Positions 1 to 38,126 of a stretch of 38,126 bases of DNA are shown here, one piece after another. Position 1 is the stretch's first letter. Every line of letters begins with the position of its first letter. Both the position numbers and the translations under genes were made by a program. This stretch comes from a virus. The DNA is taken from the IMG/VR virus record IMGVR_UViG_3300010045_000005, positions 1 to 38,126 of that record; one strand, given 5' to 3'. Below the pieces are notes generated by a model. That model was not told the DNA's origin, did not search any database, and saw only the letters and a program-made list of their open reading frames with translations.

Positions 1-15
1 CCACACCCCGTGCGC
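1..15. repeat. Terminal direct repeat, copy 1 (circular overlap)
   Basis: The first 15 bases, CCACACCCCGTGCGC, recur as the last 15 bases (38112-38126). Joining the two copies restores one uninterrupted methyltransferase frame, so I read this as the overlap of a circular assembly and not as a biological end. The unique circle would be about 38,111 bp. This fits a circular intracellular form or circularly permuted headful-packaged DNA. Confidence 0.85.
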
Positions 16-597
16 GTCCCGGATCCACTCTTCCTGAGTAACCCATCCGCCCGGATTCTTGTCGCGGTCGTAGAGACACGGCACGGGCACGCTCTCGCCA
101 GGCTTCTGGAAAATCATCACGTAGTCATTGACCGCCGGCGCGAGGTTGCGCCCATTGCGACGGCCAGTCTCGAACATCAGGCAATGAAGGTTGAGCCGCT
201 TGGCGATGATCTGGGGATTCTTCGGAATGACGAACTCGCCTTTCCACTCGAAGCCGCCGGCCTCGAATAGCTCGACGGTCGCGCCGCGAAAATCACGCCG
301 CCCCATATAGCCGTGCTGATTCTGATAGCGTAGAAGTTGCTGAATGTGGACGCAGACATTGCAGCCCGGCTTCATTACGCGAAAGAGCTGCTCTATGCAG
401 AAGCGCATGTGCAGGCCGAAGTAGCCGGCGCGAAGGTCTGTGCCGTCCTGATTATTGCCGACGTCTTCGGTCTTGCCCGAATACATAAAGAGGGCGCCGA
501 AGGGAATTGACGTGACGGCCAGGTCAACGGATTCCGGCTCGCAGCGTTCGGCCATGCCGGTCACGCAATCTTCGTTATGGATAGTCGCGTCTGTCAT
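1..597 (-). CDS. DNA methyltransferase, N-terminal two-thirds (gene crosses the circle junction)
   Basis: Adenine-N6 or cytosine-N4 DNA methyltransferase, residues 1-199 of 307; the rest is at 37785-38126. It should transfer a methyl group from S-adenosylmethionine to phage or host DNA. Motif IV is seen as TSIPFG at residues 29-34 and the SAM-binding motif DPFMGIGST at 247-255, so the order is IV before I, as in beta-class enzymes. The usual SPP[YF] is SIPF here; related phage enzymes that I recall carry SVPF or SIPF too, so it need not be dead. The ATG at 597 overlaps the helicase stop (ATGA), which argues for coupled translation. It is followed, with a GTGA overlap, by the DndC-like gene. 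The target base and sequence cannot be read from the DNA. The family call is strong. Confidence 0.9.
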   Translation of the reverse strand, partial: MTDATIHNEDCVTGMAERCEPESVDLAVTSIPFGALFMYSGKTEDVGNNQDGTDLRAGYFGLHMRFCIEQLFRVMKPGCNVCVHIQQLLRYQNQHGYMGRRDFRGATVELFEAGGFEWKGEFVIPKNPQIIAKRLNLHCLMFETGRRNGRNLAPAVNDYVMIFQKPGESVPVPCLYDRDKNPGGWVTQEEWIRDAHGVW

Positions 598-2186
598 GCG
601 CTCGTTAAGCCTTTCAGCGCCTCGCAGTAATATCGCTCCTGCGTCTCGGCGTCCTGTTCAAAATTCTCTTTCTTGCGTAAGACGTTTTCCAGAATCAAGC
701 CTTCGAGTTGTGGGATGAAGGGCACATGCACGCGCACGCTTTTCGTCTGCCCGTAGCGCACGGCGCGCCGGATGGCCTGATAGAGTTGCTCGTAAGAATC
801 ATTCAGCCCGGAGAAGATCATCGAAGTGCAGAACTGGAAGTTCATGCCGAAGCCGAGCATGGATGCCTTCGAGATGAGGGCCTGCGTGCGCCCGTGCCGG
901 AAGTCTTCAAGAATCAACTCGCGCTCTTCCGGCTTCGTGCTGCCTGTGAGCACGTCGTAAAGCACGGCGGATGGGCGCAGGAGCTGCGCGAGGATCGCGG
1001 TCTCTTCATCGAAGAGCGTCCAGATGAGCACCTGATGCCCGGCGGCGACTTCATCACGGATGAGGCGCGCGACGAACTCGGGCTTCGCGGACGGCACGAC
1101 GCGCGCGACCCGCTTGCCGGTGGCCGTATCGTAGAGAAAGCCTTTGGCGATTTGTGAAAACTTCGTCCGCTCGGTGACGCCCATGCGCTTCGCGCCGAAG
1201 AGGTCAACAGAGCCTTTGCGCGCGACGGCGTGCGCGAGTTCTAGCTGCTCGCTCACGGGTTCAAGTTTGTGCTCGAAGTAGATGGGCGCTGGAATGTCTT
1301 TGAGATTATCGGCCCAGCCGTAGCGCGCCGGGTTGCGCAAGTATATTGACCACGACGCCATGAAGCGATAGAAGCCAGCGCGCGCGTGCGGCTTCACCTT
1401 CCAGTTGCCCCGCTTATCGCGCGTGAAAAACGTCCAGAGGATTTCGCCTTCGGTGCGCAGCTTCTCAAGAAACGAAGCCTGCGAGGCATATTCCATGATG
1501 TCATTCGGGGCAGGTGTGGCCGTGCAGGATAGCTTGTATTCAACGCCGCGGGCACTCTTAATCAGATTCCACTTGATGACACCGCCGCCGGATTTCAGGA
1601 TGCTGGATTCGTCGGCGACGAGACCGGCGAGATAGCGAAACTCAGGGATGATTCCGTCCGACAGCTTTTCATAGTTGACGATGCCAAGCGCTGTCCCTTC
1701 GCCTCTGACCCATGCAATCAACTCTGCACGGGTCTTGATCTTCTCGACCGTCAGTGTGTCGCTGTAGAAGTGGACAGCCTCTTCGCAGGTCTGAGGAATG
1801 ACGGCGAGGGGCGACAGGATAAGCACGCGCCCGCCGGTGCGCGCCATGACGTGACGCGCGTACTCTAAAAAGATGGCCGTCTTGCCGAGTCCGCAGTCCG
1901 CGAAGACGGCGTAGCGCTTGGCGTGCAGCGAGGTCTCGACGATGAAGCGCTGATAGTCGAAGAGATGATCGGCGAGTGCGAGATTTGAGTTGCGCTCTGG
2001 CGCGTCCGTGATGCCGAGCAAGCGGGCGAACCGCGCCGGCGTCGTGATGCGATAGGTCGAGCGCTCTTCGTCAAACTCGACCTGGCTTTCAGGGAGCGTC
2101 TTGCAGCGTAGGAATAGCTCATAGGCTGTAAGGTCGAAGCGCTCGAATTGGACGGACGCTATTTCGTTGTGGATTGAAACTTCCAT
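594..2186 (-). CDS. SNF2/DEAD-like superfamily 2 helicase
   Basis: A 530-aa ATP-dependent DNA helicase or translocase of superfamily 2. The Walker A motif is GLGKT in ADCGLGKTAI, motif II is DESS (in place of DEAH), motif III is SCTATPAPN, and motif VI is QAIRRAVRYGQ near the C-terminus, so both RecA-like lobes are present. I chose the ATG at 2186 because a GGAG sits seven bases upstream and because longer starts would run into the gene before it. It overlaps the methyltransferase start by four bases. In many phages such a helicase is encoded beside a DNA methyltransferase. It may serve replication, recombination or DNA modification; the sequence does not decide which. It belongs to the leftward operon. 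Confidence 0.88.
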   Translation of the reverse strand: MEVSIHNEIASVQFERFDLTAYELFLRCKTLPESQVEFDEERSTYRITTPARFARLLGITDAPERNSNLALADHLFDYQRFIVETSLHAKRYAVFADCGLGKTAIFLEYARHVMARTGGRVLILSPLAVIPQTCEEAVHFYSDTLTVEKIKTRAELIAWVRGEGTALGIVNYEKLSDGIIPEFRYLAGLVADESSILKSGGGVIKWNLIKSARGVEYKLSCTATPAPNDIMEYASQASFLEKLRTEGEILWTFFTRDKRGNWKVKPHARAGFYRFMASWSIYLRNPARYGWADNLKDIPAPIYFEHKLEPVSEQLELAHAVARKGSVDLFGAKRMGVTERTKFSQIAKGFLYDTATGKRVARVVPSAKPEFVARLIRDEVAAGHQVLIWTLFDEETAILAQLLRPSAVLYDVLTGSTKPEERELILEDFRHGRTQALISKASMLGFGMNFQFCTSMIFSGLNDSYEQLYQAIRRAVRYGQTKSVRVHVPFIPQLEGLILENVLRKKENFEQDAETQERYYCEALKGLTSA

Positions 2187-2229
2187 TATATGTCTCCGAG
2201 CCATTGCTGGCCCGACTTGGCCGCCTTGC

Positions 2230-2439
2230 TTATGCGCGCGCCTCAGGGAGTTCGTCCCAAGTCCGACCGTCAAGTTCGCGCCCCGTCAGGATGATGGCGA
2301 CGGCCTGCTCGGCGTTCTTGATGGCGGCGGGCAGAAAGCCGGTCTTGACGAGCGTGTCGGCCTGCTCGCGCATGACGGCCCAGTCTGAATTATTGACCGT
2401 CTGAAGTGATTGCTGTTGTCTTACGAGTGCGTCCTGCAT
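2230..2439 (-). CDS. Small protein resembling the N-terminus of RecT-like annealing proteins
   Basis: A 69-aa protein starting at an ATG with a good AAGGAGA site. The stretch MREQADTLVKTGFLPAAI, followed by EQAVAIILTGREL, looks like the opening segment of RecT-like phage recombination proteins. The annealing domain that should follow is missing: the protein ends within 13 residues in DGRTWDELPEARA. It may be a truncated remnant, or a short protein that keeps only this interaction segment. It lies between a small unknown gene and the helicase, all on the same strand. The match is from memory of the family and is modest. Confidence 0.6.
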   Translation of the reverse strand: MQDALVRQQQSLQTVNNSDWAVMREQADTLVKTGFLPAAIKNAEQAVAIILTGRELDGRTWDELPEARA

Positions 2440-2976: not shown

Positions 2977-3720
2977 TCAGTCGGCTTTAATGAAGACGCC
3001 CTTGTCGGTGAGGCGATATTTGACGTTCGGCTCAACGCCGTTCTCGTTGATGTAAGCCACAGAGAAGCGATAGCGCGAGCCGTCCCACCATCTGATAATG
3101 AGGCTGCCGCCCTCGCCAGCGGTCGCAGTGCCGCCCTCGCCAGCGGTCGCAGTGCCGTAATCGCCAGCGGTCGCAGTGCCGCGATAGCCAGCGGTCGCAG
3201 TGCCGTAATCGCCAGCGGTCGCAGTGCCGCGATAGCCAGCGGTCGCAGTGCCGTAATCGCCAGCGGTCGCAGTGCCGTAATCGCCAGCGGTCGCGCTTTC
3301 GTGGTCGCTCGCGACCACGAAAGCGCCGACGACCCCCTGTAATCCAGCCTTGTGCTTGAAGAGGAAATCGGTCGCAGATTTGCGATCCCCGCAGTGAATG
3401 ACTTTACCGGCCCTGAACTTGATTTTGCCTTCGAGGTCAACGACGCCCTTCTTTTGATCTACTTCGACAATGAGCCAGCGCGCGTCTTCTTCCCAGTTGA
3501 GAAGGCCGCCGCTTCCGATGCCCCACCCGAGCGCGTGCAGGCCGCCGCCGCACACTGGCCGCTGATCCCAGTCGGGCGCTTCTACGCTCCCACGCTTCGG
3601 CCACACGAAGCCGCCGTACGCGCGCATATCCTTGCTCACTGTCTTGAGCGCCAGTAGGGTCTCTGTTTTCGATGGCGCACGCTTCACAGCGCGCGTTTTT
3701 GCTTGAGTTGCAGTTGACAT
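2977..3720 (-). CDS. DUF7666-like protein with eight TATAG octapeptide repeats
   Basis: A 247-aa protein. Residues about 50-120 hold a globular domain with the CGGGLHA motif and a WLIVEV strand, typical of what I remember as DUF7666. Residues 142-205 are eight head-to-tail octapeptides of the form TATAGDYG, TATAGYRG or TATAGEGG. Regular Thr/Ala/Gly repeats like these may fold as a stacked beta-solenoid. A C-terminal domain of about 40 residues follows. The start has a good AAAGGA site. This family is common in phage genomes but has no established role. The repeats are almost identical at DNA level, so copy number probably varies between relatives. Confidence 0.75.
   Translation of the reverse strand: MSTATQAKTRAVKRAPSKTETLLALKTVSKDMRAYGGFVWPKRGSVEAPDWDQRPVCGGGLHALGWGIGSGGLLNWEEDARWLIVEVDQKKGVVDLEGKIKFRAGKVIHCGDRKSATDFLFKHKAGLQGVVGAFVVASDHESATAGDYGTATAGDYGTATAGYRGTATAGDYGTATAGYRGTATAGDYGTATAGEGGTATAGEGGSLIIRWWDGSRYRFSVAYINENGVEPNVKYRLTDKGVFIKAD
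3106..3297 (-). repeat. Eight 24-bp tandem repeats inside the DUF7666-like gene
   Basis: Eight consecutive 24-bp units encode the octapeptides of residues 142-205. Most are identical even at third codon positions, and differences are concentrated in the two codons after GGC (GATTAC, TATCGC, GAGGGC). That pattern points to recent expansion by slippage or unequal recombination. The array is in frame with a length divisible by three, so changes in copy number keep the gene open. Confidence 0.9.
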
Positions 3721-3766
3721 GATGAGTCCTTTGGGGAAAAGGGCGGGACGTGGCCGCCCGGATGTT

Positions 3767-4063
3767 TCAGGCGGCGACGGCGCGGGCGCGCAGTTCCATC
3801 ATTGTGACGATATGGTGGCCGACCGATGCGGCGACATGGACGCAGGCCAACCCGTGCTGATTCGCGGGGCAGGGCGTGGCGTCTGGACGCTGGCAGGTGG
3901 CGAGGCGCTGGCCGTTGACGAAAAGGAATTGAACGCGGTTCATGCCGCCTTCGGAGTTCCGCACGAGGTAGCGGCGCGGCTCGACGGGGCGGACGAGCGG
4001 TTTTAGTTGACGGGCTTTCTCGATTTGATTCTTGATCTGAGCGGCGGATTTCAGTATCAGCAT
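3767..4063 (-). CDS. SWIM-type zinc-finger-like small protein
   Basis: A 98-aa protein, the first gene after the leftward promoter, with an AGGAAGGA site before its ATG. Residues about 50-80 read as a strand-rich segment (RVQFLFVNGQ) followed by Cys-x7-Cys-x8-Cys-x-His (TCQ to CVHVAAS). This resembles the CxC...CxH ligand pattern of SWIM domains, which bind DNA or proteins, but the first Cys pair is spaced wider than the classic CxC. Being first in the operon, it could be an early regulator or host-interaction protein. The SWIM assignment is a pattern match only. Confidence 0.65.
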   Translation of the reverse strand: MLILKSAAQIKNQIEKARQLKPLVRPVEPRRYLVRNSEGGMNRVQFLFVNGQRLATCQRPDATPCPANQHGLACVHVAASVGHHIVTMMELRARAVAA

Positions 4064-4107
4064 TTGGGTGTCCTTCCTGTTGGCGCTTGATTGGGCCGAC
4101 GAGAGGG

Positions 4108-4136
4108 AGGGTACACCAATAGGATACCAATGTCAA
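4108..4136 (-). promoter_or_regulatory. Predicted leftward early promoter (pL-like)
   Basis: On the minus strand a perfect TTGACA (4136-4131) is followed after 17 bp by TACCCT (4113-4108), a weak -10 that keeps T, A and the final T. The expected start near 4101 leaves a leader of about 38 nt before the ATG at 4063. The rightward promoter at 5096-5124 has the same TTGACA-N17-TACC layout. Confidence 0.65.
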
Positions 4137-4148
4137 CTAGTAGAATAC
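4119..4148 (-). promoter_or_regulatory. Left operator, inverted copy of the right operator
   Basis: This 30-bp segment, read on the minus strand, matches 5084-5113 on the plus strand at 27 of 30 positions. It contains the -35 box and two direct half-sites, GTATTCTA and GTATCCTA, 21 bp (two helical turns) apart. Being shared by both divergent early promoters, it is the natural binding site of the repressor and of the Cro-like protein. Confidence 0.7.
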
Positions 4149-4156
4149 ATTTAGGC

Positions 4157-4188
4157 GAAAAAAATTTAAGGCTCGAAAATGAGACCTT
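4157..4188 (-). terminator. Intrinsic terminator of the repressor-ImmA transcript
   Basis: On the minus strand an AAGG-CTC / GAG-CCTT hairpin (seven pairs with one bulged base, six-base loop) is followed by AAATTTTTTT. It lies 37 bases downstream of the ImmA-like stop codon and just upstream of the leftward promoter, so it would keep repressor transcription from running into the early operon. Confidence 0.75.
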
Positions 4189-4224
4189 CTGGGCAGGGCT
4201 TTGAACGTGAAAAGTGGTTGGCTG

Positions 4225-4644
4225 TTAAATCTTAAATCGCTCTAATACTTTCCTCCGAAACGCCAGTATGTCTTTCGGGAAGTCGTGAAGTTCGCCCTGA
4301 TAAATCCGGTACAGGGTAGGCTCGTCAAGGACAGAACAGACGGCCAACACATTTGCCTCAGATTCAATTTTACTGACCGTCCCTTTGGTAAAGCAGCGCA
4401 GCCCCGGTGGGTGTTGTAAATGATGCACCATCTCATGCCAGCCTGCGTACCAGAGCCGCACGCCGGACAATCTGCTGCTTAAAGCGATGACGGGATAACC
4501 TTCGCAATGAAAGTACATTCCCGGAGTTTTCATCTTCGGTCGAACGATTTGAATCTCTTGATGCTCACACGCTGCTTCAAAATCGCTAAACGTTAAGGCC
4601 CGCTGATTCCAGCCGAGCAACTGTAATAAGCGAGGTATATTCAT
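4225..4644 (-). CDS. ImmA/IrrE-like zinc metallopeptidase
   Basis: A 139-aa predicted zinc protease. The catalytic motif HEMVH is at residues 70-74, with a likely third ligand in KIESEANVLAV (Glu96), the pattern of the ImmA/IrrE family (COG2856). Its ATG overlaps the stop of the repressor gene (TAATG), so the two are translationally coupled. In ICEBs1 and many Firmicute phages the protease ImmA cleaves the repressor ImmR to trigger induction; the same role here is inferred from the motif and the gene pair. It is short but within the family range. A terminator follows at 4157-4188. Confidence 0.85.
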   Translation of the reverse strand: MNIPRLLQLLGWNQRALTFSDFEAACEHQEIQIVRPKMKTPGMYFHCEGYPVIALSSRLSGVRLWYAGWHEMVHHLQHPPGLRCFTKGTVSKIESEANVLAVCSVLDEPTLYRIYQGELHDFPKDILAFRRKVLERFKI

Positions 4645-5012
4645 TATTTCCCCTTTTTAATGCGTTTCAGTGCGTCTTTAGCCATGTCCCATGCGATCTT
4701 AAAATCACGTCTTTGTTGCGGCCTCAGCTTCTCAACGTCCTTAAACATCAGAGCAAATTCGCTTTTGGCAAACCCTTCTGGCAAAGAGGCTTCATCAGGC
4801 CGGATAAACCCAAGCGACACAAGCGGCTCCAACAGAGTTGTGCCCAGCGCTCTTGCGAAAGCCTCAATCGTGGCGAGTGGCGGGATCGAATCGTCGTTTT
4901 TATTCTCCCACTTACTGACATAAGCCTTCTCAAAGCCGGCCTTCTCAGCTACAGCTTCCTGCGTCATCCCGACGCTTTCCCTCTTCTGTTTTAGCCACTC
5001 TGAAAAAGTCAT
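4644..5012 (-). CDS. XRE-family HTH repressor (CI/ImmR-like)
   Basis: A 122-aa cytoplasmic regulator. Residues 3-60 form an XRE helix-turn-helix (TQEAVAEKAGFEKAYVSKWEN is the core), and the rest is a charged C-terminal part without the Ser/Lys protease dyad of LexA/CI repressors. That fits regulation by the coupled ImmA-like protease instead of RecA-stimulated self-cleavage. I chose the ATG at 5012; an in-frame ATG at 5033 is possible. Longer readings add a low-complexity tail that runs through the operator. It lies between two inverted operators and is transcribed away from the Cro-like gene, so it most likely maintains lysogeny by blocking both early promoters. Confidence 0.88.
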   Translation of the reverse strand: MTFSEWLKQKRESVGMTQEAVAEKAGFEKAYVSKWENKNDDSIPPLATIEAFARALGTTLLEPLVSLGFIRPDEASLPEGFAKSEFALMFKDVEKLRPQQRRDFKIAWDMAKDALKRIKKGK

Positions 5013-5044
5013 AGACGATCCGTGCCCCCTCATTGTCAACCAAG

Positions 5045-5051
5045 AGGATAC
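5045..5051 (-). promoter_or_regulatory. Isolated operator half-site near the repressor start
   Basis: AGGATAC on the plus strand (GTATCCT on the minus strand), followed by TAG, repeats the half-site found in both 30-bp operators. It lies about 33 bp upstream of the repressor ATG, where binding could autoregulate the repressor gene. This is a single short match and so only suggestive. Confidence 0.4.
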
Positions 5052-5083
5052 TAGCGGCAGCGGTGGAATGGTAGGATTGTGGG

Positions 5084-5113
5084 GTATTCTAGTAGTTGAC
5101 ATAAGTATCCTAT
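5084..5113 (+). promoter_or_regulatory. Right operator
   Basis: This is the plus-strand copy of the 30-bp operator (27 of 30 identical to the reverse complement of 4119-4148). It contains half-sites GTATTCTA at 5084 and GTATCCTA at 5105. A further pair, GTATC-N7-GATAC (5105-5121), forms an inverted repeat that runs into the predicted -10 box, where a bound repressor would exclude RNA polymerase. Confidence 0.7.
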
Positions 5114-5124
5114 CGTGATACCGT
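5096..5124 (+). promoter_or_regulatory. Predicted rightward early promoter (pR-like)
   Basis: A perfect TTGACA (5096-5101), a 17-bp spacer and TACCGT (5119-5124). The expected transcription start falls at about 5131-5132, directly at the ATG of the Cro-like gene. That gene has no Shine-Dalgarno sequence, so its mRNA may be leaderless. Confidence 0.6.
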
Positions 5125-5131
5125 GTCCGGC

Positions 5132-5353
5132 ATGACAGATTTGACGCAGACCCAAATAGACGCAAACAAGCTGAAAGAGGCGCGGGAGAGGAAGGGTTTA
5201 ACCCAAGCCGAGGTGGGCGCGGCGGTGGGTGTCCAGAAAGCCGCCATATCGAAAATCGAATGCGGTATTGGACTCCCATCCGCTGAAACCCTCGCGCGGC
5301 TCTGTGCGCTCTATGAAGTCGGCATTACCGAGCTAACCACACAAGCGCCTTAA
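5132..5353 (+). CDS. Cro-like XRE helix-turn-helix regulator
   Basis: A 73-aa protein made up almost wholly of one XRE helix-turn-helix domain (residues 14-65; core TQAEVGAAVGVQKAAISKIE). It diverges from the repressor gene across the right operator, the position of Cro in lambdoid phages. By analogy it should bind the same operators and push the switch toward lytic growth. A GTG at 5123 would add three residues, but it lies inside the predicted -10 box. The ATG at 5132 lacks a ribosome site and coincides with the predicted +1. Confidence 0.85.
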   Translation: MTDLTQTQIDANKLKEARERKGLTQAEVGAAVGVQKAAISKIECGIGLPSAETLARLCALYEVGITELTTQAP

Positions 5354-5456
5354 CCGCCAACCATTCTTAAACTTTTTCCGTCGGTCGGGGAAGGCTCTAT
5401 TTCTGGCCCAAAAGCACTAGGGTAGCCAATGTCGCACTGCCAAACACCACACACCA

Positions 5457-5723
5457 TTACGGTTCGCCAGGATTCTCATCACGTGGCGGCGGCTGTCTGC
5501 CAGCGCTCTCTTGAACTCCAAAGGCGTGCCGCAAAAGAAAATCAGTCTGCATCTGCTCATAGCGCCGCGCGACCTCTACAGCGTCTGCGTGCGTGGTTGA
5601 GGCGGTTGTCTCGATTACCAAAACGGCCAGAGCGTCAATAGAGGCGCGCAACTGAAGCACGAGCTGCAAGATTTCGGGCAGGGTCTTGTTGGCGTCAATA
5701 GTGAATTTGAATGGTTCTGACAC
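5457..5723 (-). CDS. Hypothetical protein on the strand opposite the right early operon
   Basis: An 88-aa protein with a GTG start preceded by AAAGGAG. It is helical and Leu/Ala-rich in the middle (LPEILQLVLQLRASIDALAVLVIE) and polar and Pro-rich at the end. It has no recognised family. It runs against the Cro-like and CII-like genes that flank it, so it may be expressed in the lysogen or act as an antisense gene in the switch. The 103 bases between the Cro-like stop and this gene contain no feature I can support. Confidence 0.55.
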   Translation of the reverse strand: MSEPFKFTIDANKTLPEILQLVLQLRASIDALAVLVIETTASTTHADAVEVARRYEQMQTDFLLRHAFGVQESAGRQPPPRDENPGEP

Positions 5724-7358: not shown

Positions 7359-8225
7359 ATGGCGTTCATTCCAGATAGCGCGCTTCGGCGCAAGCGGGAA
7401 TTAAGTTATGCGGCTCGGGACGTGTACGAAGCGCTCTGCGCGTTCGCTGATCCCTACACCGGCATAGTCGAGGCCCGCTATGCGTCGAACGCGCGTCTTG
7501 TGGAGTGGACAGGCTTCAAACTCGGGTCAGTCAAAAACGCGCTCACGGAGCTACGCAAATCCGGCTGGATTGAAGAGAGAGAAGGGCGCGTATTCTTGCT
7601 CGTCGGCACGTTCCTCGGCGGTGTGGAAAAGGCCAGACCGTCACCCACGAATGACGGTGCGTCACTCAGGAATGACGATTCGCAGCCCGTCGAGACCCCT
7701 CAACCGTCATTCAGCAATGACGCACCGTCACTAGGGAATGACGCACCGTCATTGCGCAGTGACGCACCGTCACCCACAAATGACGCTACATATACAGGCG
7801 TTACCAGCCCAGTTAACCAGCCCATAGACCAAACCATAAACCAGCCCGACGGCGACGACGCGCGCGCGCCAACGGGGAAGGCCAAGCGCGAAGGCAAGAC
7901 CGGGCCGCCTGACGGCTTTCCCCTGACTCCCGACCTGCTCTCGTGGGCAGCCGAGCACGCGCCACACGTCAACCTTGCGCTTGAAACGGACGCCTTTCTC
8001 GACTGGAACCGGCGCAAGCGCAAGCGCCGCACGGATGCCGACTGGAAACTGGCGTGGAAAAACTGGATGCGCAACGCCGTGAAGTTCGCGGCGCGTGACG
8101 GAACCGCCCAGAAAGCCGTCCCGGTGCGCCGCTCGAATGTTGACCGCAGCATGGACGCCGTGCGCGAACGGATCGCAGAGCTGGAGGTGAAGAAACTATG
8201 CAGCACGAACTCAGCCCCGACCTAG
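7359..8225 (+). CDS. Replication initiator, lambda O-like, with iterons in its own gene
   Basis: A 288-aa predicted origin-binding protein. Residues 1-85 form a winged helix-turn-helix (YAARDVYEALCAFAD to LRKSGWIEEREGRVFLLV) as in phage replication initiators. Residues 94-143 are a low-complexity linker of seven-residue units (APSLGND, APSLRSD, APSPTND) whose DNA carries the six iterons. The C-terminal 110 residues contain FLDWNRRKRKRRTDADWKLAWKNWMRNA, a pattern typical of phage O/replisome organiser proteins. The helicase-loader-like gene overlaps its 3' end. In lambda, O binds iterons within its own gene and recruits P; the same arrangement is visible here. The exact family is inferred. Confidence 0.85.
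   Translation: MAFIPDSALRRKRELSYAARDVYEALCAFADPYTGIVEARYASNARLVEWTGFKLGSVKNALTELRKSGWIEEREGRVFLLVGTFLGGVEKARPSPTNDGASLRNDDSQPVETPQPSFSNDAPSLGNDAPSLRSDAPSPTNDATYTGVTSPVNQPIDQTINQPDGDDARAPTGKAKREGKTGPPDGFPLTPDLLSWAAEHAPHVNLALETDAFLDWNRRKRKRRTDADWKLAWKNWMRNAVKFAARDGTAQKAVPVRRSNVDRSMDAVRERIAELEVKKLCSTNSAPT
7638..7786 (+). repeat. Replication origin iterons (six palindromic copies)
   Basis: There are six 20-bp sites of the form [CG]CGTCA-N8-TGACG[ACG], starting at 7638, 7659, 7704, 7725, 7746 and 7767. Spacing is exactly 21 bp (two helical turns and seven codons) except for one gap where a degenerate site lies. Each site is itself an inverted repeat, fitting a dimeric initiator. The following 60 bases are locally AT-richer (CATATACA to CATAAACC), suitable as an unwinding region. 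Confidence 0.85.
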
Positions 8226-8740
8226 AAATCGAACTCACGAAGCGCATTGGCGCTCTCGCTGCTGCGTTTCCCTACGCGCAGATTTCGGGCGAGACCATCA
8301 AGGTCTATGCGCGGATGCTCGCAGATATTCCGCTCGAAGTGCTCGACGCCGTTGCGAGTCAAGCGATGGCCGAGTGTGAGTTTTTCCCGACGATTGCGCG
8401 CGTGCGCGAGATGGCGATGAATCTGGCATCTCCGACCGGCCAGCACGTCTCGGGCTTTGAAGCGTGGGAGCAAGTCATTCGCCAGATTCGCTCTGTTGGC
8501 TCATACGGGCGGCCCGGCTTCATTGATCCGCTAATCACGCGCGCTGTCGAGTGTCTCGGCTGGCCGGAACTCTGCCAGTCGGACAATCAGGTGGCCGACC
8601 GCTCGCACTTCGTGCGGATCTATGAGCAGCTCGTAGAGCGCGAGCGTGCAGAGGCTCGCCTGCTGCCCGAATCGCGCGAACTACGCGCGAGTGTTTTGCA
8701 CTTAGCCGAGCAGAAGAAGATCGCTGGAGGTAAAGGATGA
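8198..8740 (+). CDS. Helicase-loader-like replication protein
   Basis: A 180-aa protein that starts inside the initiator gene at an ATG with a strong GGAGGTGA site. Residues 20-75 (INTO the segment FPYAQISGETIKVYARMLADI to FFPTIARVREMA) resemble the helical domain of phage helicase loaders such as SPP1 G39P and related replisome proteins. The position directly after an O-like initiator is where lambda has P. It would bring the host replicative helicase to the origin; no phage replicative helicase of the DnaB type is visible, so recruitment of the host enzyme makes sense. The function is inferred from family resemblance and synteny. Confidence 0.7.
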   Translation: MQHELSPDLEIELTKRIGALAAAFPYAQISGETIKVYARMLADIPLEVLDAVASQAMAECEFFPTIARVREMAMNLASPTGQHVSGFEAWEQVIRQIRSVGSYGRPGFIDPLITRAVECLGWPELCQSDNQVADRSHFVRIYEQLVERERAEARLLPESRELRASVLHLAEQKKIAGGKG

Positions 8741-36281: not shown

Positions 36282-36602
36282 TTATTGCTCGGTTCTCTCC
36301 ATATCGAAAATTGACGGCTGCGACGTATCCCGCCGGATGTACTTCGTCTCAAGCCCTTCGACCGTAATGATCTCGTCAAAGTCACACTCGCGCGCAACCT
36401 CAACTATCTTCTCGAAGTATTCAGGCCGCACGTACCAGAGTTTTGTTTCCGGGTCGTAGCAGCGATTCGAGTAATGCACGGCGTCTTTCAGCCGCTCAAT
36501 AAACTGCTCGCAATAGGCCGACTCGATTTCGACGGTGCAGTCGGGCTTCTGCGCCGGGCCGCGTGTCCGTTTCTTGATGGTGATGTCATATCGCCTGCCC
36601 AT
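36282..36602 (-). CDS. HARP-like small protein, leftward operon
   Basis: A 106-aa protein with GGAGAATGAT before its ATG and two bases after the DndC-like stop. Its core, IERLKDAVHYSNRCYDPETK and LWYVRPEYFEKIVEVAREC, has the form 'Ri.y..R.yDp..k.W.v...y...v...a...F', which I associate with HARP-type domains of SMARCAL1 helicases and with short phage proteins. It could be an accessory to the SNF2-like helicase of the same operon. This is inference by pattern. Confidence 0.6.
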   Translation of the reverse strand: MGRRYDITIKKRTRGPAQKPDCTVEIESAYCEQFIERLKDAVHYSNRCYDPETKLWYVRPEYFEKIVEVARECDFDEIITVEGLETKYIRRDTSQPSIFDMERTEQ

Positions 36603-36603
36603 A

Positions 36604-37788
36604 TCATTCTCCGAAGATAAGTGGTTGCATCGAACCGTCCCGGTAAATTTCGGGCCGCATCACGTCGCCGCGGTCTTCGTCTCCTGTCCATTTATTCGGC
36701 CAGGTGTTCGCGTCAATCAGTTCGAGGATGCGTAGCTCTTCCTCTTCATTGATGAGCGAGACTTCCGGCATGCCCTGAGAGCGCGCACCTTCGTTCACTT
36801 CCAACTGGATTGCTAAGACCTCTGCAAGTCCCGCGCGACGAGCTTCCATTGTGAGCGGCCCGCGCCGCCCCTGATTTGCTGCGAGCTGGCCGTCTGCGTT
36901 CGTCTCCATGTATTTGCGCAGGCGGTTATGAAACTTCGTCAGTTCGGCGTAGAGCGGGCGCAGGCGCTTTAAGGGCGAGAGGTATTGCCAGCGTGGTATG
37001 CGCAGCACGGTGTCGAGCGCCGTGTCTTTACTGGCAAGATTACAACCGACGCAGCCAGTTCGGGCGTTGATCTCCTGTGCTTCGTCGCCGCCATAGGCTT
37101 CGGCAATTTCGGTCGTGGGGAAGCCGAGGTCGGGAGCATAGAACATCAGCCAGTCCCAGACGTGGCAGACGCGCCAGTGAAGAATAGGCGCGAGCGTGTC
37201 GGCGATCCTTTCGGGTGTGGCTTCCTGAAACCATCCCTGACCGCACTCTGCCCCGTCACGGCTGCACGAGAGCGCGATCCGGGCGTCGCGCTGTGCCGAT
37301 TCGCCGAGGCGCACGCCTGTCAGCATTAGCAACTTCTCGCCCGTGCGCTCGCGCAGATCCTTCAGCGCATTCTCCATCGGCTCGATTTTTAGCTGTGCCG
37401 TGCACCATCGAAAGCGATTCTTCGGCGGCGGTACGCCTCGCCCGAACATATAGACGAAGAAACGCTCGTCTAACTCTGGCAGGACAACATGCGCCTCATA
37501 GCCGCGGTCGCGTATGGCGTTGATGATGCCCATCGCAGAGGCTTGGAGCGGCGGCAACTCCATCCGTGTGTCAGCGTAGAGCACGGTGAGAGACTCAGGC
37601 TTTGCTATCTGTCCGCCCTCGATTAAATCTATGGTGGCCGTTACTGCCGCGCTCGAATCCTTGCCGCCGCTGTATGCGATGGCCCAGTGGCGATAGCGCT
37701 CACCGTAGGCGCGCAGAGAATCCGCCGTCAGAGCGAGCGACTTTTCCAGCGTCAGGCGCTGGTCTTCAAATAGGCTCTGGTTTCTCAC
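36604..37788 (-). CDS. PAPS-reductase/DndC-like PP-loop protein
   Basis: A 394-aa protein of the adenine-nucleotide alpha hydrolase (PP-loop) superfamily. The PP-loop is SGGKDSS at residues 40-46. FRWCTAQLKIEPM (Cys129), LTGVRLGES, Cys182, and TGCVGCN (Cys246, Cys249) follow the order seen in DndC and phage PAPS-reductase proteins, in which Cys residues hold an Fe-S cluster and the PP-loop activates a substrate with ATP. DndC takes part in DNA phosphorothioation; many phage relatives have no proven function. The GTG start overlaps the methyltransferase stop (GTGA). No DndA, D or E partner is present. See the related finding. Confidence 0.85.
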   Translation of the reverse strand: MRNQSLFEDQRLTLEKSLALTADSLRAYGERYRHWAIAYSGGKDSSAAVTATIDLIEGGQIAKPESLTVLYADTRMELPPLQASAMGIINAIRDRGYEAHVVLPELDERFFVYMFGRGVPPPKNRFRWCTAQLKIEPMENALKDLRERTGEKLLMLTGVRLGESAQRDARIALSCSRDGAECGQGWFQEATPERIADTLAPILHWRVCHVWDWLMFYAPDLGFPTTEIAEAYGGDEAQEINARTGCVGCNLASKDTALDTVLRIPRWQYLSPLKRLRPLYAELTKFHNRLRKYMETNADGQLAANQGRRGPLTMEARRAGLAEVLAIQLEVNEGARSQGMPEVSLINEEEELRILELIDANTWPNKWTGDEDRGDVMRPEIYRDGSMQPLIFGE

Positions 37789-38126
37789 AGTGCGACCCCT
37801 TCTTCTATCAGACTGAACAGCGAGTGATCGTCTGACGCATTCAGCCGGCGCGCCAGTTCGACATTCCTGACGGCCTGCCGGTAATAGCTCTCCTTCAGCT
37901 CGAAGCCGACAGCGCTTCGCCCCTCGCGCACGGCCACAAATGCGGTCGAGCCGATTCCCATAAACGGGTCAAGCACTGTCTCGCCGGGATTCGTGTAGAG
38001 CCGCACGCAACGCCTGATCACTTCGAGCTGGAGCGGGCAGACGTGCTTCTCTTCCTGATTCTCTCTTGCCGACTGATAGCCTTCGAGCACGTCAGTCTCG
38101 CGAATGTCGCGCCACACCCCGTGCGC
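37785..38126 (-). CDS. DNA methyltransferase, C-terminal third
   Basis: Residues 194-307 of the methyltransferase that begins at 597; bases 38112-38126 duplicate positions 1-15. It contains the SAM-binding motif LDPFMGIGST (246-255) and CPLQLEVIRRCVRLYTNPGE before it, the typical approach sequence in this group. Reading continues without a shift across the joined ends, in the same codon register. An internal GTG at 38117 is not needed as a start. Confidence 0.9.
   Translation of the reverse strand, partial: AHGVWRDIRETDVLEGYQSARENQEEKHVCPLQLEVIRRCVRLYTNPGETVLDPFMGIGSTAFVAVREGRSAVGFELKESYYRQAVRNVELARRLNASDDHSLFSLIEEGVAL
38112..38126. repeat. Terminal direct repeat, copy 2 (circular overlap)
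   Basis: CCACACCCCGTGCGC is identical to positions 1-15. Together with the frame continuity of the methyltransferase gene, this shows that the molecule is circular or circularly permuted. Confidence 0.85.

Follow-up and report, generated by a model that had tools for sequence, protein, structure and literature searches.

What phage genes annotated as PAPS reductases do is unsettled, and they are regularly tallied among the auxiliary genes of the sulfur cycle. One gene that falls under this label, encoding a DndC-type protein, lies beside a DNA methyltransferase gene in the viral record studied here, and it raises the question of whether such proteins feed sulfur metabolism or take part in the modification of DNA. 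The DndC-like cysteines of the protein, together with the repeated adjacency of its family to unrelated DNA methyltransferases, make DNA modification the likelier role, and we consider the family more likely to be an aid to DNA modification than a feeder of sulfur metabolism.

The locus in a temperate phage

The window, that is, the whole stretch of DNA analysed, comprises 38,126 nt and corresponds to positions 1 to 38,126 of IMG/VR virus record IMGVR_UViG_3300010045_000005. Genes for terminase, portal, capsid, prohead protease, tape-measure protein, repressor and integrase were found in the record, and the combination of structural genes with a repressor and an integrase indicates a temperate tailed phage. 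The features relevant to the locus are as follows.

36604–37788, minus strand: 394-aa PP-loop protein of DndC type (family phrog_12882), translated from a GTG start, with SGGKDS at residues 40–45 and six invariant or nearly invariant cysteines
37785–38126, minus strand: beta-class N6/N4 DNA methyltransferase, C-terminal part, PF01555 at 68.5 bits (cut-off 26.7), DPFMGIGS
1–597, minus strand: the same N6/N4 methyltransferase, N-terminal part, phrog_67 at 2.1e-11, TSIPF
594–2273, minus strand: SNF2/DEAD-type helicase, 559 aa, PF00271 at 52.4 bits and PF00270 at 26.8 bits (both above cut-off), GLGKT (Walker A) and DESS (Walker B)
36282–36602, minus strand: 106-aa open reading frame starting 1 base past the DndC-type stop codon, PF07443 (HARP) at 17.4 bits (cut-off 25)
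1–15, no strand: 15-base direct repeat, copy 1, same as 38112–38126 and the ground for a circular reading
38112–38126, no strand: 15-base terminal repeat, copy 2, same as 1–15

A preliminary description of this DNA had read the helicase, methyltransferase and PP-loop genes as a trio joined by four-base overlaps. The open reading frame at 36604–37788 on the minus strand, 394 codons from a GTG start, is real, and both overlaps are present, ATGA between helicase and methyltransferase at 597–594 and GTGA between methyltransferase and DndC-type gene at 37788–37785. The helicase and the DndC-type gene occupy the two far ends of the window, so that only a circular record would bring the trio together. 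The identical 15-base ends and the methyltransferase that reads in frame through the join make it very likely that the record is circular or circularly permuted. Once the ends are joined the methyltransferase has 307 aa, spanning 597–1 and then 38126–37785, and its motif IV (TSIPF at 29) precedes motif I (FMGIGST at 249), the order of beta-class PF01555 enzymes. Gene callers that assume a linear record would miss this gene, which is cut by the record's ends.

The module is directed leftward, from the repressor side towards the integrase, and its position downstream of the repressor on the same strand makes expression in a lysogen possible. At 4225–5279 the repressor is followed by an open reading frame with a WHEMVHH stretch, ImmA-like by eye, and the frame at 2977–3720 encodes a DUF7666 protein that contains a series of GTATAGDYG-type repeats and belongs to phrog_18079, a family with no assigned function. 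HARP domains occur with SNF2 helicases; for the 106-aa frame at 36282–36602, whose HARP match is below cut-off, a search for viral relatives found none by that method.

The absence of DndA, DndD and DndE, which had also been proposed, holds for the window: among its 51 open reading frames no NCBIfam or PADLOC row corresponds to these proteins, or to SspA, SspB or SspC, with 25 of the 29 matched NCBIfam families listed. PAPS-reductase-fold proteins also occur in other conflict systems, as the CysH-like protein of type IV-B CRISPR and as BrxP and SspD, the latter two linked to BREX type 4 (PMC8175902 and PMC12839542, in excerpt), and the BrxP and SspD profiles match the window protein weakly. 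In contrast to type IV-B CRISPR and BREX type 4, no csf, SspB/SspC or PglZ was recognised in the window, nor were other BREX partners among its 51 frames, where the helicase gives just a partial match to BrxH models.

A DndC-type family with cysteines of its own

The protein gives a full-length match to phrog_12882 (502.5 bits, E 1.5e-150, residues 8–392 against profile positions 9–403 of 404). PHROGs labels this family 'phosphoadenosine phosphosulfate reductase', a name for which the CysH motif offers no support. ECGxH is the catalytic motif of CysH, and it was found in 0 of 169 members. The family has GCxxC and ECGQG instead, although it shares with the CysH PAPS/APS reductases the HUP/PP-loop fold and a PF01507 match above cut-off. 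PMC8175902 also states that CysH has a conserved C-terminal cysteine.

Among characterised families the best matches are TIGR03183 (DndC) and the PADLOC DndC model. The TIGR03183 match reaches 130.2 bits (E 9.7e-38) against a curated cut-off of 290.4, and a cyanobacterial DndC scores 662.1 bits for comparison. With four cyanobacterial DndC proteins as outgroup, the phrog_12882 family forms one long separate branch. Like DndC, the window protein has the SGGKDS PP-loop, the GxGxPxP..FRWCT..LK core and the GCxxC pair. It differs in length (394 aa versus 529), in its score below the cut-off, in having no C-x10-C dyad, and in its own invariant C175/C182/C208; the phage, moreover, has no DndA/D/E, and the gene is paired with methyltransferases. 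The preliminary term 'DndC-like' is apt in so far as the protein is related to DndC far beyond chance. By the TIGR03183 cut-off and the dyad, it is DndC-type and not DndC proper.

C129, C175, C208, C246 and C249 occur in 168 of 168 members and C182 in 167 of 168; one pattern of the scan that supplied these relatives includes RWCT, so that C129 was partly selected for, while the other five cysteines were not. That scan kept the best 80 of 374 viral stretches, and a second kept the best 80 of 147; the alignments A3 and A4 hold 70 and 69 rows chosen from 91 representatives. SGGKDS at 40–45, the SGGxDS motif of PP-loop ATP-pyrophosphatases, is invariant in 69 alignment rows. C129 and C246/C249 align with the RWCT and GCWVC of DndC, whereas C175, C182 and C208 belong to the phrog_12882 family and are not shared with DndC. 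Conversely, the C-x10-C dyad is present in all four DndC proteins compared and not in the window protein. PMC10853773 describes three cysteines as the ligands of the 4Fe-4S centre in DndC, and a further cysteine dyad as its probable sulfur carrier. We infer that the three are the RWCT and GCxxC residues, and that the dyad is the C-x10-C pair before GCWVC.

The AlphaFold model of the protein (pLDDT 87.3, pTM 0.86) has a PP-loop fold, with a low-confidence segment around C175/C182 in which residues 163–174 and 176–180 have pLDDT below 50. Its best fold matches (Foldseek/VIA) are APS/PAPS reductases, LarE, TtuA, NcsA, and GMP and FAD synthetases, with NAD synthetases also present. Some of these hits (GMP and NAD synthetases, FAD synthase) are to enzymes that move no sulfur, and the fold by itself therefore leaves the chemistry unsettled. 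A search by sequence found no relative of solved structure. In L032 a second, frame-broken copy (3064–4262) lies upstream of the intact family gene.

DNA methyltransferases beside the family

Fifty records, chosen for length and diversity from 88 viral/phage loci whose neighbours had already been seen, were searched in full with Pfam. A C5 (PF00145) or N6/N4 (PF01555) methyltransferase was present in 37 of them, counting some PF00145 rows under the cut-off (L089 on such a row alone) and leaving out three weak PF01555 rows; in the 13 records with no match to either profile, some are fragments. The nearest methyltransferase lay no more than 600 bases from the family gene in 18 of the 50 records, no more than 1.2 kb in 21 and no more than 3 kb in 28, where random placement predicts 1.16, 2.28 and 5.47; in these 28 it was always on the same strand. 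None of 4000 simulations gave counts as high, under a null that takes no account of the clustering of early genes. This point is answered in part when the remaining genes on the same strand of each locus serve as controls: the count for the family gene is 23 of 59, the mean for the controls is 5.0, and 0 of 5000 draws were as high. Up to 0.7 kb from the family gene, methyltransferase density in the retrieved loci was 0.297 per kb and side; farther out it was 0.015–0.068.

The type of partner is variable. Among 51 rows the family tree requires 15 or more changes of partner type (C5, N6/N4 or TIGR04096), and the partner lies upstream in some loci and downstream in others; in many, the start codon of one gene overlaps the stop codon of the other. 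Pairing that arises again and again is the pattern expected under selection for a shared function, and is no proof of a complex. Of the tree's 107 family rows, 56 had no methyltransferase inside 700 bases as judged by profiles less sensitive than those of Pfam.

Pairing extends to isolates and plasmids. Seventeen phage records matched, of which eight were examined, the rest being five far relatives, the unannotated KM389401 and three duplicates. At 52% identity or above, all seven isolates examined (RR1-A, phiC725A, RHph_N28_2, Mae-JY29, D14A, Dobby and OQ658365) have a methyltransferase within one gene, labelled in D14A by the whole-record Pfam search and in OQ658365 by clustering. In Thermus phage Tsatsa, at 41% identity, the annotation shows no methyltransferase beside the family gene. 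From 878 matching plasmid records six were opened. Three of these exceed 50% identity, and in each of them a methyltransferase lies directly upstream; the other three are far relatives. Plasmid H20 carries the family gene in two pieces.

A chromosomal form of the pairing is found in cyanobacteria, where in L101 and its relatives a family member adjoins a dnd locus that encodes DndB, DndC, DndD and DndE. In seven cyanobacterial loci the family gene is divergent from a gene for a 671–724 aa protein; the one tested is TIGR04096 at 839 bits, and the other six are 62–92% identical to it. NCBI names TIGR04096 'DNA phosphorothioation-associated putative methyltransferase'. This name and a conserved DYGCGHG motif make it a putative methyltransferase, although it has no Pfam methyltransferase match and its structural model, for which 7 sequences were used, is of low quality (pLDDT 62.7, pTM 0.36). 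Among 292 cyanobacterial genomes TIGR04096 exceeds its cut-off in 83 and the phrog_12882 family is found in 4 at E 1e-60. All four of these strong matches stand next to TIGR04096 in divergent orientation, confirmed by sequence in three genomes and by coordinates in G001, the centre of the genome draw, whose pair was known beforehand, so that three of the four are fresh. A fifth, weaker match, G001:C23 (349 bits), is distant (39% identity) and lies in a phage-like region with no TIGR04096 beside it. In L189, which holds this locus (family gene at 4363–5619), a frame at 7450–8421 resembles a Dam-type methylase by eye. The cyanobacterial loci thus resemble the phage loci in holding a phrog_12882 member, here divergent from TIGR04096, and differ in being chromosomal, beside DndB/C/D/E and confined to one clade inside the family, at the base of which stands a viral contig.

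The helicase shows no such constancy. The window helicase and methyltransferase together match the single-chain helicase-methylase phrog_16, and the relatives L017 and L060 also encode a helicase-methylase in a single chain. Yet only one of eight viral records holding a relative of the helicase has a DndC-type gene, and there its neighbour is a C5 methyltransferase. The proposed trio is thereby rejected as a conserved unit, and the helicase as a member of a fixed module. What survives of the preliminary description's DNA-modification module is the link between the DndC-type gene and methyltransferases, and it is this link, seen across many phages, plasmids and cyanobacteria, that favours a role in DNA modification.

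A proposed sulfur mark on DNA and the alternatives

The reading that we prefer, and to which we give slightly less than an even chance, is that the DndC-type enzyme is coupled to the neighbouring DNA methyltransferase and adds an extra, probably sulfur-based mark to phage DNA; the chemistry is predicted from sequence. A PP-loop, probably [4Fe-4S] sulfur-transfer enzyme would work with whichever methyltransferase adjoins it, which would replace the scanning modules DndD/DndE or SspB/SspC. The partner methyltransferase would bind the DNA and choose the site, the ATP-using PP-loop domain would activate a base or backbone oxygen, and sulfur from a host cysteine desulfurase would pass through the Fe-S centre to C175, C182 and C208 and on to the activated position. 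Carrying this methyl-plus-sulfur mark, with the sulfur on the methylated site or adjacent to it, the DNA of the phage or prophage would be protected from host restriction. Gene linkage and motif pattern are what we observe; that the protein binds an Fe-S centre, transfers sulfur, forms a complex, acts on DNA and gives protection is what we infer, and IscS, named in the preliminary description, is a possible source of the sulphur.

Alternatively, the gene and the methyltransferases may act independently, for example against different host systems, and be neighbours through a phage gene island. The free change of partner type, its position on either side and the 56 of 107 rows with no methyltransferase called nearby are all in keeping with such a bystander, which we nevertheless consider somewhat unlikely: the excess is concentrated in the first 0.7 kb and not region-wide, start and stop codons frequently overlap, and the pairing is seen again, with a partner of unrelated type, in cyanobacterial loci outside phages. 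Methyltransferase neighbours could also be explained by a PAPS reductase that acts as a sulfate-assimilation auxiliary metabolic gene and raises the supply of cysteine and SAM. PF01507 (PAPS_reduct, 33.2 bits, cut-off 22.5) and the PHROGs label speak for this, and phage papers treat such genes in that way (PMC8879888 and PMC5463345). The missing ECGxH motif speaks against it, as does the nearest characterised relative by profile score, which is DndC and not CysH, and we regard sulfate assimilation as very improbable. A regulator, or a nucleotide- or RNA-modifying PP-loop ATPase that performs no DNA sulfur chemistry, as in tRNA thiolation or an adenylation switch, would suit the tRNA thiolases NcsA and TtuA and the non-sulfur PP-loop enzymes among the fold matches; the repeated link to DNA methyltransferases and dnd loci makes it improbable.

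A bolder form of the preferred coupling to methyltransferases, which we hold to be unlikely but worth stating, is a third route of sulfur into DNA that uses neither DndDE nor SspBC. Specificity would be borrowed from an exchangeable methyltransferase and the product would be a methyl-plus-sulfur double mark, which could be a base that is thiolated or methylthiolated, or a methylated site with a phosphorothioate; the cyanobacterial TIGR04096 pair would be its chromosomal counterpart. A mirror image of the preferred coupling is reported in PMC10853773, where cytosine methylases replace the phosphorothioation genes beside DndDE-type cores. No description of the pairing between this family and methyltransferases was found in open-access papers (subscription papers and preprints lay outside the scope).

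This is a large family (374 viral stretches in one scan), and what has been found favours a part for it in DNA modification next to methyltransferases. Should this hold, tallies of viral sulfur metabolism would include modification genes, and TIGR04096 would gain its first functional clue. Phage PAPS reductase-type proteins have been said to deserve further investigation (PMC11437467), and Pseudomonas phage Dobby and Rhizobium phage RR1-A, isolates that carry the pair, make the question approachable in culture. For one S. meliloti prophage with PADLOC DndC and MTase_II hits, the affiliation was left open in PMC12429752.

A fusion of DndC with a methyltransferase, considered on account of a match to PADLOC PDLC03333 'MTase_II', was rejected. 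Canonical DndC matches the same model at 340 bits (30–500 of 544), so the model is a DndC and its label is misleading. PADLOC 'MTase_II' calls drawn from PDLC03333 may therefore be wrong.
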